This document shows positions 1,969 to 15,129 of a stretch of 64,000 nt of DNA, in pieces. The notes under the pieces are model-generated. The model searched no databases. It had not been told where the DNA came from and was given only the letters and a program-made list of their open reading frames with translations. This DNA is from Alphaproteobacteria bacterium MedPE-SWcel (GTDB taxonomy: Bacteria > Pseudomonadota > Alphaproteobacteria > Rhodobacterales > Rhodobacteraceae), in the NCBI GenBank assembly GCA_001874255.1, contig MPDC01000014.1, positions 1 to 64,000 on the forward strand. Reading direction: 5' to 3'. The stretch's first letter is position 1. Each line of letters opens with the position of its first letter. The position numbers were made by a program, and so were the translations under genes.

Positions 1969-2755
1969 TTTCGCTGCTTTCGTTTGCAACCGGGGCGTCG
2001 GCCACGAGGATTCGGGTTCCGGCCACGGCGGCGGCTTCGGCGAATTCCTGGGGCACCGGGCGGTCGGTGATGACAATGTCGAGCTCGTTCAGGGCGCAGA
2101 TCCGCACCGGGGCCGAGCGTTCAAATTTGCTGCCGTCGCAGATCAGAATGCGTGCACGGGCATTCTTGAGCAATGCGCGGGCGACGGAGACCTCCCGTGC
2201 ATCATGGTCGAGAATAGCGCCGTCAGGGTCCATCGCCGACGCGCCAATGACCGCATAGTCCAGTTTGTAGCGGCTGATGAAATCGACAGCCTCCTCGCCG
2301 ACGATGGCTCCGTCGCTTTGACGAATGCTGCCCCCCACAAGGATGAGGTCGCGGGTCTCGACCTCCATCATCATAATGATAATGTTTATATTGTTGGAAA
2401 GGATGGTCAGGCCTGTGTGCCCTGTAAGCGCCCGTGCGACCTGTTCGGTGGAAGTTCCGATATTGAGCGCAAGAGAACAGTTTTCGGGGATGATTTCAGC
2501 GGCGAGACCGGCCATCGCGCGTTTGCCGCCTGCATTGAGCATCCGTCGTTCCGCATAGCCGCGATTGGCGGCAGAGGCGATGCGGACCGCGCCGCCATGG
2601 ACCCGGCTGAGCTGACCGCGCCCGGACAGGTCACGCAGGTCGGTCCGCACGGTCTGCAGGGATACGCGAAACCGCCGTGCCAGATCCTCAACCTCTACAC
2701 GGTCCTGTAGGTTCAGCAGCGACAAGATTTCGTTTTGGCGGTCATTCGCATCCAT
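1961..2755 (-). CDS. glpR: DeoR-family transcriptional regulator
   Basis: N-terminal RQNEILSLLNLQDRVEVEDLARRFRVSLQTVRTDLRDL HTH and DeoR sensor domain; directly upstream of glpD. Confidence 0.9.
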   Translation of the reverse strand: MDANDRQNEILSLLNLQDRVEVEDLARRFRVSLQTVRTDLRDLSGRGQLSRVHGGAVRIASAANRGYAERRMLNAGGKRAMAGLAAEIIPENCSLALNIGTSTEQVARALTGHTGLTILSNNINIIIMMMEVETRDLILVGGSIRQSDGAIVGEEAVDFISRYKLDYAVIGASAMDPDGAILDHDAREVSVARALLKNARARILICDGSKFERSAPVRICALNELDIVITDRPVPQEFAEAAAVAGTRILVADAPVANESSEND

Positions 2756-11290: not shown

Positions 11291-12517
11291 CTACTGCCGG
11301 CCTTCCCGCGCCCGCTTCAGCATCTTGCCGATGGTGAAGGAGGTGCGCGGGGCATAGACATAGCGGGTGCGTTCCTCGGGGGCGGGGCGCGACCGCATGC
11401 GGGCGATGCCAAAGATGATGAGCCCGGCGTGCCCGAGGGCAACAAAGACGAAGAGAGCAACGGGTCCAAAGGCTTCGATCAGGGCCGAGGCCACCAAGGG
11501 CGCCGCGATGGCGCCGACGGCGTAGAAGAACATCAGGGCGGCCGACAGCTCCACCCGCTCTTCCGAGGTGGCAAAGTCGTTGGCGTGGGCGGCCGATACG
11601 GAAAAGATGGGCACCGTGGTCAGGCCGAAAAACGCGGCGGAGCCCATGATGGCAAAGGTGCCGCCTCCGCTGGCCGGCAGGGTCAGGGCGCAGGCCATCA
11701 TGGAGACGCCGGAAAGCCAGATCAACACCCAGCGGCGGTCGTATTTATCCGCCAGCCAGCCCACCGGATATTGCGCCAGCGCCCCGCCGAGAACAAAGGC
11801 CGCGAGAAAGAATGCGATCTGGTCCGCTCCGAGGCCGACCTCCTGGCCGTAGATGGGGCCGACCATCCGAAAGGAAGCGCCGCTGAGGGCCGCGACAATC
11901 ACCCCCGCAACCCCGAGCGGTGAACAGCGCCACGCAAGCGCCGGGCGCAGCCGCGCCGCAGAGGGCAGGGCGGGCTGGCTGGCGCTGGTCATCATCAGCG
12001 GCAGCAGGGTCGCGCAGCACAGGATCGCCAGCAGGTTGTACGACACATAGGACGCAGGTGGCAGAACCGCGATCAGCAGCTGCGCGGCAAAGGACGCCCC
12101 GGTATCGGCAATGCGGTACACGCCGGAGGTGCGGCCACGGTTCTCATTGGTCACCTTGGCGTTGATCCAGGCCTCGATCACCGTGTAGCAGCCCGCGACA
12201 CAGAGGCCTGAGGCGATCCGCATCGCGGCCCAGGCATAGGGGTCTTCGATCAAGGTGTGCCCCAGGAGCCCCATTGCGCCAAGGGCGGTGCAGACGGCAA
12301 AGGCCCGCGAGTGTCCCACCCGGCCCATCAGCCGGGGCGCCCACCAGCAACCGATGAAGAAACCGAGGAAATGCGCCGAGCCGAGCAGGCCGATCTGGCG
12401 GTTGTCAAATCCCATCGCGGCGCCGGACAGGGCGTCCAGCGGCCCTACGCCTCCGGTTGAAAGCTGCAGCAGGATGACGGACAAAAACAGGGCGGCAAAG
12501 GAAAGGAGTGTACGCAT
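11291..12517 (-). CDS. MFS transporter
   Basis: 12-TM-like hydrophobic profile, LLGSAHFLGFFIGCWWAPRLMGRVGHSRAFA. Confidence 0.88.
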   Translation of the reverse strand: MRTLLSFAALFLSVILLQLSTGGVGPLDALSGAAMGFDNRQIGLLGSAHFLGFFIGCWWAPRLMGRVGHSRAFAVCTALGAMGLLGHTLIEDPYAWAAMRIASGLCVAGCYTVIEAWINAKVTNENRGRTSGVYRIADTGASFAAQLLIAVLPPASYVSYNLLAILCCATLLPLMMTSASQPALPSAARLRPALAWRCSPLGVAGVIVAALSGASFRMVGPIYGQEVGLGADQIAFFLAAFVLGGALAQYPVGWLADKYDRRWVLIWLSGVSMMACALTLPASGGGTFAIMGSAAFFGLTTVPIFSVSAAHANDFATSEERVELSAALMFFYAVGAIAAPLVASALIEAFGPVALFVFVALGHAGLIIFGIARMRSRPAPEERTRYVYAPRTSFTIGKMLKRAREGRQ

Positions 12518-12541
12518 GTCAGGCCCGACCATAGGGTAAGT

Positions 12542-13339
12542 TTAGTCGGTCGCAGTATTCTTTTCGACGCGGGATGTCGTTTTAGGGTCGTGATGCGGAT
12601 TTTCCTCATGTCTCTTGTCCGGGAGCAGCTGCAACGCCGCGCCCGCAGCGGGGTGTCGGACACGCCAGGCCTTGACGGGCTGGGTGCGGGCGCGCAGGCG
12701 CTCCAGCCGCCATTGGCGGAGCGGTGCGGCAGTTGGGCCGACAGTCGGCTCAGCAGCCAGATCAGCAGTCGGGTCGGCATGAGACCGGGGCGCAGGCAGC
12801 GGGTGGGGCGCGGGCGATGAACCCGCGGAGAGGGCGACTGGTGAGCCGGGGGCATTGTGTTCGGCGGCCAGATGCCAGCGGCTCTCGATTCCCGGGGCGC
12901 CGCCCTGGTCTGGGGTCAGCAGCAGCGCCAGCGGAGCAGGAAGGGCTGCGCCACCGGATTCAGCCGCCAGATGCAGGCGGCGCACCGGGGTGAGCGCGGG
13001 AGGGGCGGGAAGATCGACCACCACCAGCGGCACCGCTCTGCTGCGCAGGCTTTCTTCGCAGGCCCACAGAAGGTCTTCGGCGCGGGTGGCGCGCAAGAAC
13101 AGGAAGCGGCCCGGATCGACAAAGTCGACCATTCCGTCGGGATTGAGCTGATCGGGGGTCCAGGCCGGGCTGATCCAGAGCACGGGGCCTTTGGTCGCGG
13201 CTGCCAGCCAGAGCGCAAAGGTCCGGCGCGCAGGCCCGCAGGCTTCGTGGGCGCGTCCCTTTGCCAGAGTCAGGGTCGGCAGTGGGGAAATCCCATCGCG
13301 GGCAGGATGGGTTTTGCGGGCAAGCAGGTGAGATGACAT
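12542..13339 (-). CDS. ImuA-like (RecA-fold) protein, stand-alone
   Basis: LPTLTLAKGRAHEACGPARRTFALWLAA...GPVLWISPAW...DLLWACEESLRS...LTPVRRLHLAAE...WRLERLRARTQPVKAWRV, resembling ImuA architecture; no imuB/dnaE2 nearby. Confidence 0.6.
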   Translation of the reverse strand: MSSHLLARKTHPARDGISPLPTLTLAKGRAHEACGPARRTFALWLAAATKGPVLWISPAWTPDQLNPDGMVDFVDPGRFLFLRATRAEDLLWACEESLRSRAVPLVVVDLPAPPALTPVRRLHLAAESGGAALPAPLALLLTPDQGGAPGIESRWHLAAEHNAPGSPVALSAGSSPAPHPLPAPRSHADPTADLAAEPTVGPTAAPLRQWRLERLRARTQPVKAWRVRHPAAGAALQLLPDKRHEENPHHDPKTTSRVEKNTATD

Positions 13340-13356
13340 GCCCGCAGTATAGGGAT

Positions 13357-13371
13357 GTTCCTAGTTCGTTC
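13357..13371. promoter_or_regulatory. LexA SOS box GTTC-N7-GTTC
   Basis: GTTCCTAGTTCGTTC, exact alphaproteobacterial SOS-box consensus, 18 nt upstream of the ImuA-like start. Confidence 0.75.
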
Positions 13372-13483: not shown

Positions 13484-13885
13484 TTACCAGTGGTATGGGT
13501 TCAAGGGACCCTGCGCTGCCATCCAGGCCTCAAGGCCACCGCGCAGGCAATGTACATCCTGCAGCCCCATATCCTGAGCCAGCCGGGTGCTGAGCGCGGA
13601 CCGCCAGCCGTTGTCGCAGTAAAAGATGAACGTCGCCTCTTTCCCAAAGACTTCGCGGGCAAAGGGACTGTTCTGATCTAGCCAGAACTCCAGCAATCCG
13701 CGTGGGCAGGAGTGCGCGCCGGGAATGACGCCGGTCTTTTGCAGTTCGCGGAAGACACGGAGGTCAACGAATTCCACTTTCGTTGTATCGTGCAGCGCCA
13801 GACCATCCTCGACAGAGATGAAGGAAATCACGGATTCGGCATCCGCAACAAGGTCCTGATAGCTCTTGGTGGTGATGAAAGTCAT
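13484..13885 (-). CDS. Rhodanese-like domain protein
   Basis: VEFVDLRVFRELQKTGVIPGAHSCPRGLLEFWLD, FIFYCDNGWRSALSTRLAQDMG (active Cys). Confidence 0.9.
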   Translation of the reverse strand: MTFITTKSYQDLVADAESVISFISVEDGLALHDTTKVEFVDLRVFRELQKTGVIPGAHSCPRGLLEFWLDQNSPFAREVFGKEATFIFYCDNGWRSALSTRLAQDMGLQDVHCLRGGLEAWMAAQGPLNPYHW

Positions 13886-14082
13886 GAAGTGCCTCCTTTT
13901 AAATCTGTGATCGTGAGATCATTAGTCGGGAGTAGATGTTCTTTGTATACCATTGCGCACCGACTTTGTGTGACAGAAAACGACGCAATGGTTAATGATG
14001 CGGAGGGCAAGGCGGGCGGTGGCTTGCATTGGTGTCGCTAAGGGCTAGGGTCCTGCCAAGCATGACATGAGGAGACTACGTG

Positions 14083-15129
14083 ATGAAAATGAACCGGCTT
14101 GGCCGCACGGACATGATGGTATCGGAGCTGTGTCTCGGGACCATGACCTATGGAACGCAGACCGATGAGGCCGATGCCCATGCCCAGATCGACATGGCGC
14201 TGGATGCGGGACTCAACTTTCTCGATACGGCCGAGATGTATCCGGTCAACCCGGTCCGGGCCGAGACCATGGGGCGCAGTGAGGAATACATCGGCAGCTG
14301 GAACGCCAAAACCGGCCGCCGGGGCGCCTATATCCTGGCGACGAAACATTCCGGAGAGGGCTCTGTGGCGCGGGACGGGGCACCGATCTCGAGTGCCACC
14401 ATAGCAGCCACGATCGAGGCATCGCTGAAGCGTCTCCGGACCGATTATATCGACCTTTACCAGTTCCACTGGCCAAACCGGGGCAGCTATATGTTCCGCA
14501 AGAACTGGACATATGACCCGACCTCCTCAACCCAGAGCCGCGCGGATGTGATCGCGGATATGGAAGATTGTCTGGGCGCATTACAGCGCGAGGTGGACAG
14601 GGGCACGATCCGCGCGTTCGGCCTGTCGAACGAAAGCGCCTGGGGCACGGCGCAATGGTTGCGGCTGTCTGATGCGGGCAAGGGCCCTCGGGTGGCTTCG
14701 ATCCAGAACGAATATTCGTTTCTATGCCGCCTCTACGACACCGATCTGGCCGAGCTGAGCCATTACGAGGATGTTGGTCTATTGTCGTTCTCGCCGCTGG
14801 CTGCGGGATATCTGACTGGCAAGTATCAGAATGGTGCGGTGCCGGAAGGATCGCGCAAATCTCTCAACGCCGAGATGGGGGGGCGGCAGTCCGAGCGGGT
14901 GCTGGGCGCCGTTGCGGCCTATTTGCAGATCGCGGCGGATCATGGGCTGGATCCGGTGCATATGGCGCTGGCGTGGTGCAAGACGCGGCCCTTTATGACC
15001 TCGGCGATCTTTGGTGCCACCAATGTCACACAGCTGACGCATCTGCTGAACGGCGTGGATCTGGAGCTGAGCGATGCGGTCCTCGCCGATATCGATGCAG
15101 CCCACCGGGCCAACCCGATGCCCTATTGA
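14083..15129 (+). CDS. Aldo/keto reductase (Tas-like)
   Basis: MNRLGRTDMMVSELCLGTMTYG, LDTAEMYPV, YIDLYQFHWPNR. Confidence 0.93.
   Translation: MKMNRLGRTDMMVSELCLGTMTYGTQTDEADAHAQIDMALDAGLNFLDTAEMYPVNPVRAETMGRSEEYIGSWNAKTGRRGAYILATKHSGEGSVARDGAPISSATIAATIEASLKRLRTDYIDLYQFHWPNRGSYMFRKNWTYDPTSSTQSRADVIADMEDCLGALQREVDRGTIRAFGLSNESAWGTAQWLRLSDAGKGPRVASIQNEYSFLCRLYDTDLAELSHYEDVGLLSFSPLAAGYLTGKYQNGAVPEGSRKSLNAEMGGRQSERVLGAVAAYLQIAADHGLDPVHMALAWCKTRPFMTSAIFGATNVTQLTHLLNGVDLELSDAVLADIDAAHRANPMPY

Follow-up and report, generated by a model that had tools for sequence, protein, structure and literature searches.

The imuA gene of the window (the whole 64,000-nt stretch of DNA analysed here, from a marine bacterium of the Roseobacter group, Rhodobacteraceae) very probably encodes the ImuA subunit of a complete ImuA–ImuB–DnaE2 translesion mutasome, the genes of which, to judge from their sequences and surroundings, are dispersed in the genome and united only as a LexA regulon. 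This reading would account for an otherwise puzzling lone imuA, and would make the family a case in which a mutagenic machine of several proteins keeps its genes together without linkage, apparently through shared regulation alone. Features of the locus and of the two partner genes are listed in Table 1.

Table 1. Features of the imuA locus (window positions) and partner genes in the same genome (positions on contig C54)
Feature	Position	Strand	Remarks
MFS transporter	11291–12532	-	Pfam MFS_1, E 7.9e-30; 3′ of imuA
imuA	12542–13339	-	265 aa; ImuA1-type, RecA fold (predicted), degenerate Walker A GPARRTFA, dispersed type
-10-like hexamer TATACT	13346–13351	-	putative; 17 nt from -35, 6 nt before ATG
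LexA operator (SOS box) GAACGAACTAGGAAC	13357–13371	-	exact match; kept in 27/27 orthologues
-35-like hexamer TTGGAA	13369–13374	-	putative promoter; overlaps box; family consensus TTGAGA
Rhodanese-domain protein	13484–13885	-	Pfam Rhodanese, 1.3e-15; 5′ neighbour, outside the system
Aldo/keto reductase	14080–15129	+	divergent; marks the imuA locus by synteny
imuB	C54:24929–26599		own LexA-type site
dnaE2	C54:51847–54747		own LexA-type site

The window protein is an ImuA with a predicted RecA fold

Read from its ATG at 13339–13337, the product of the window gene matched the NCBIfam ImuA model NF033429 over residues 47–131 (E = 7.8e-9). Its score of 35.7 bits lies below the curated cut-off of 150, as does that of a canonical cassette ImuA from the same genus (33.1 bits). 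A Pfam search with the window protein gave no ImuA match, a phmmer search against PDB sequences returned nothing, and identity to ImuA proteins encoded beside imuB was approximately 36–46%. The AlphaFold2 model (17 sequences) was confident in the core, with blocks of pLDDT 85–97, and disordered in the tail; Foldseek matched it best to RecA, RAD51-type and KaiC proteins (E approximately 1e-6, probability 1.00; TM approximately 0.45 relative to the query length, long disordered tail included). The RecA fold assigned by the model, together with the sub-cut-off NCBIfam match, bears out the description of this gene as ImuA/RecA-like in an earlier, sequence-only reading. That reading had also seen no Walker A motif, and rightly so: the position reads GPARRTFA instead of GPESSGKT, and the Walker motifs, as judged there, appear to have been lost. 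Since loss of Walker A and B has already been published for proteobacterial ImuA1 (PMC12926913, PMC6511836), the absence of Walker A is no anomaly.

Beyond about residue 160, the ImuA sequence is variable and partly disordered, as might suit a decaying remnant that had broken from a cassette and was losing function. Such decay is scarcely credible, given a core in which about 80 columns are invariant in eight orthologues, a promoter and box intact in all 27 stand-alone orthologues, and the retention of imuA in 79 of 80 genera, described below.

A LexA-type box is conserved within the predicted imuA promoter

Upstream of imuA lies an exact copy of the alphaproteobacterial LexA motif GTTC-N7-GTTC (PMC3323433), reading GTTCCTAGTTCGTTC on the forward strand and GAACGAACTAGGAAC in the direction of the gene. 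It had been placed 18 nt from the ATG; the box itself stands, and the distance from its end to the ATG was measured as 17 nt. A single exact match to this motif is weak evidence: the window contains two against 1.2 expected, and the 4.08 Mb genome contains 105 against 84 for a reversed control pattern, a genome-wide count that cannot prove function. The second match in the window (2443–2457) was rejected as an SOS box, lying within the coding sequence of a DeoR-type regulator and probably being due to chance.

The imuA box is considered real because of its conservation, rather than its single occurrence. A profile built from eight orthologues and scanned over genome contigs identified 47 imuA loci, of which 27 (L087–L113) had neither imuB nor dnaE2 in the fetched flanks (up to 10 kb per side) and 20 (L114–L133) were imuA-imuB-dnaE2 cassettes. 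Perfect GAAC-N7-GAAC sites, with differing spacers, were found 15–17 nt 5′ of the ATG in 27/27 stand-alone imuA genes, and at the equivalent site in 0/20 cassette-type imuA genes.

Alignment of 28 promoters on the box gave a consensus of TTGAGA over the left half of the box, a 17-nt spacer holding the remainder of the box, TAnnnT, approximately 6 nt and the ATG. Conservation was high in the -35 columns (T 0.89, T 0.93, G 0.82, A 0.82) and in the TAnnnT columns of the -10 (0.79/0.86/0.71). This placement of the -35 and -10 around the box predicts an operator inside the imuA promoter and a transcript beginning at or near the ATG, and therefore a leaderless imuA mRNA. The recA gene of the same genome has a pair of overlapping boxes, oriented like that at imuA. 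The genome's lexA gene was not located, which counts against the reading of the three genes as a LexA regulon.

The adjacent MFS gene is probably an incidental partner

The MFS transporter gene had been described as lying 24 nt downstream of imuA on the same strand. The strand is correct, and the distance applies only if translation starts at the second ATG (12517), being 9 nt from the first (12532). The shared strand, the gap of 9–24 nt and the presence of an MFS gene near imuA in 15/27 orthologous loci could suggest an SOS-induced efflux operon, in which the main role of imuA would be tied to the transporter. We give this next to no credence, because 12/27 loci had no MFS match in the fetched flank and in several further loci the distance between the MFS gene and imuA ran from hundreds to thousands of bases. 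Being a neighbour in no more than 15 of the 27 loci, the transporter gene tells little about function, and on this synteny it was rejected as a functional partner of imuA; it is probably an incidental read-through partner. Other neighbours were an aldo/keto reductase gene, found beside imuA in 24/27 loci, metG (17/27) and the gene for the rhodanese-domain protein (7/27).

Partner genes in the same genome have LexA-type sites of their own

As had been observed from the window, imuB and dnaE2 are not near imuA. A scan for imuAB-dnaE2, proposed as a check of the sequence-only reading, found all three genes in the genome and no contiguous set: imuA lies on contig C6, and imuB and dnaE2 lie 25 kb from each other on C54. 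The genome encodes only one ImuA, the sole other match to the ImuA model being recA; imuB is one of two Y-family genes, and dnaE2 one of two DnaE genes. A perfect box, GAACAAATACGGAAC, is present 5′ of imuB, and a 7/8 box, GAACAAAACGGGAAT, 10 nt before the dnaE2 ATG, so that both genes look LexA-controlled. The suggestion that imuA represents a separate, possibly uncharacterised SOS factor is not borne out by these findings, as the genome's only ImuA is accompanied by ImuB and DnaE2 elsewhere, each with its own box.

Among relatives, the imuB box was perfect in 26/26 scanned loci (including L144 upon rescan). The dnaE2 box matched in at least 7/8 positions in most loci (a few could not be scored, owing to start assignment or contig ends); GAACAAAANNNGAAT (7/8) was the commonest form, and four loci had a perfect box.

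A dispersed mutasome could be assembled as follows. LexA would occupy the GAAC-N7-GAAC operator between the -35 and -10 of the leaderless imuA promoter, and similar operators before imuB and dnaE2. Upon DNA damage, RecA filaments would provoke self-cleavage of LexA, and imuA, imuB and dnaE2 would be switched on in trans. ImuA, with its RecA fold and no working ATPase site, would then bind the RecA-NT motif of ImuB, an inactive Y-family protein, by the ImuA/ImuB contact published for such systems (PMC12926913, PMC6511836), and ImuB would bring error-prone DnaE2 to the damaged DNA. LexA binding, induction by damage, formation of the complex and mutagenesis by the dispersed set are thus expectations of the model, which builds on the observed gene set, boxes, fold and motifs and on the dispersal and co-retention described next.

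The three genes are retained together without linkage

Orthologues or homologues of imuA were present in 17 of 18 members of the genus. All 17 had the three genes and the eighteenth had none; eight of the complete genomes were of the dispersed type and nine of the cassette type. One cassette-type member (G010) has imuA and imuB-dnaE2 on separate contigs of a draft assembly. ImuB was found in 26/27, and DnaE2 in 27/27, of the named genomes with a stand-alone imuA, a set that overlaps with the dispersed members of the genus, several genomes being in both.

The pattern extended over the family. From 200 genera drawn, 180 had a DnaE2 relative, and 80 genera were then picked for the high-identity DnaE2 type; imuA and imuB were each present in 79/80. 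In 77/80 genera, imuA was >10 kb from both partners or on a different contig, and in 71/80 all three genes were apart, although the contigs are draft and, in many of these genomes, placement on different contigs gives no distance as such. Where dispersed imuA and imuB shared a contig, they were >100 kb apart in 13/13 genomes.

Some individual arrangements departed from this. G072 has a dispersed set plus a contiguous cassette in one genome. In G203, imuA and imuB are adjacent (704 bp) and dnaE2 is on another contig, possibly an intermediate arrangement. In G070, G128 and G193, dispersed-type imuB and dnaE2 are no more than 600 bp apart, divergent or convergent, and form no operon.

Dispersed and cassette mutasomes form separate lineages

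In trees of ImuA, ImuB and DnaE2, the dispersed and cassette types were separated by one change each, with support of 100; these trees are quick searches with SH-aLRT support only, midpoint rooted, and the ImuA tree came with long-branch warnings. The RecA-NT-like motif LEDLxGRLGARxGLE is kept in dispersed ImuB, and a RecA-NT-like motif is present in cassette ImuB too.

These results bear on the possibility that imuA acts as a stand-alone SOS factor that needs neither ImuB nor DnaE2, such as a modulator of RecA or an inhibitor of division like SulA. Its lack of linkage to either gene would fit such a role, as would weak SulA-model matches of the group's cassette ImuA, although the window ImuA itself gave no match to the SulA model up to E 10. 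This alternative is nonetheless quite improbable: imuA is the only ImuA gene of its genome, imuA, imuB and dnaE2 are retained or missing as a set throughout the genus and the 80 genera, the ImuB proteins of the same genomes keep the motif that would bind ImuA, and the three gene trees split identically. A subunit of a dispersed mutasome is much the better reading.

The two lineages also differ in their replicons. In PLSDB, 760 plasmid records had a DnaE2 relative, all at <60% identity, which is the range of the cassette type; none fell within the identity range of the dispersed type, and the window ImuA found only distant plasmid matches. Given these identity ranges, the dispersed type looks chromosomal and the cassette type often mobile. 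A canonical cassette is known from a 126-kb plasmid of Dinoroseobacter shibae (PMC9426580).

Differences were likewise seen within the proteins. The OB motif was absent from 25/25 dispersed DnaE2 sequences examined, compared with 0/29 cassette sequences. Where the conserved EEVVEDY motif could be located, dispersed DnaE2 terminated 22–84 residues past it, and cassette tails, where measured, were 154–169 residues long. Consistent with this, Pfam OB domain PF01336 was found in cassette DnaE2 and not in that of the window genome, which matches the NCBIfam profile for error-prone polymerases as far as position 938 of 1047, cassette DnaE2 covering the full 1047. In ImuB, the clamp-type site is I-L-x-L-F or I-A-A-L-F in the cassette type and mostly I-R-P-L-L in the dispersed type. 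Clamp and RecA-NT motifs are known to vary among ImuB groups (PMC12926913), and the altered motif may change clamp binding. Because the OB domain of DnaE2 and the LF-type motif of ImuB are both lost, we infer that docking of the mutasome is probably somewhat rewired.

It is possible, and we suggest it only tentatively, that the dispersed set constitutes a chromosomally fixed mutasome of distinct function, in which an OB-less DnaE2, an altered ImuB clamp motif and three separately tuned promoters would give a subunit stoichiometry and timing after damage different from those of the plasmid-prone cassette that takes its place, or stands beside it, in sister species. As close relatives carry either arrangement, the group is a natural comparison for how a protein complex profits from being encoded in an operon; it also allows one to ask whether damage-induced mutagenesis depends on the OB domain of DnaE2 and the clamp motif of ImuB.

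Relation to known systems

The closest known system is the imuA-imuB-dnaE2 cassette of Caulobacter (ImuA1-ImuB1-DnaE2A, Proteobacteria), which has the same three proteins, GTTC-N7-GTTC LexA-type sites, an ImuA without Walker A and an ImuB with a RecA-NT-like motif. That cassette is one operon, whereas the genes described here occupy three loci and fall in a separate clade in all three trees, with DnaE2 lacking the OB domain and the LF-type clamp motif of ImuB replaced. The mycobacterial split system, imuA′-imuB / dnaE2 (PMC6511836, PMC3901139), likewise occupies more than one LexA-controlled locus, but keeps imuA′ and imuB together; here all three genes are apart and the proteins are of the proteobacterial type.

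Separate placement has a precedent. According to a passage in PMC3901139 (which cites Erill 2006 and 2007), nearly every configuration occurs, among them one in which imuA, imuB and imuC each have a separate locus and a separate SOS box, as in the present case. That passage names no taxa and mentions neither OB loss nor a change of clamp motif; the cases it cites could possibly overlap with the Rhodobacteraceae. Similarly, the relevant part of PMC3919608 describes ‘several’ DnaE2 sequences as lacking the C-terminal OB domain and does not name the present lineage there, whereas here the loss marks the whole dispersed lineage examined. No earlier description of a family-wide, chromosomal dispersed lineage with OB-less DnaE2 and an altered ImuB LF motif was found in the searchable literature.

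Further features of imuB and dnaE2 promoters in relatives

In the clade nearest to the window (L164–L177, L184), the dnaE2 box consistently ends in GAAT, not GAAC (7/8), which might make for a weaker operator or a different timing of induction. In most relatives (L164–L169, L171–L176, L179, L181 and L184), the LexA box of dispersed-type dnaE2 is preceded at a fixed 11–12 nt by a GACTC-like site (GANTC, CcrM-type), raising the possibility of methylation-linked control.

In cassettes, a perfect LexA box lies within the 3′ coding end of imuA, about 15–40 nt before imuB, and was detected in 20/20 (L114–L133) and 8/8 (L010–L017) cassette loci. Upstream of cassette imuA there was no perfect box, save in L014, where a single match in reverse orientation overlaps the start. 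In the Tritonibacter/Thalassovita type, the internal box coincides with the N-K-S-G-T codons. The same stretch of DNA seems to be constrained both as ImuA protein and as operator.
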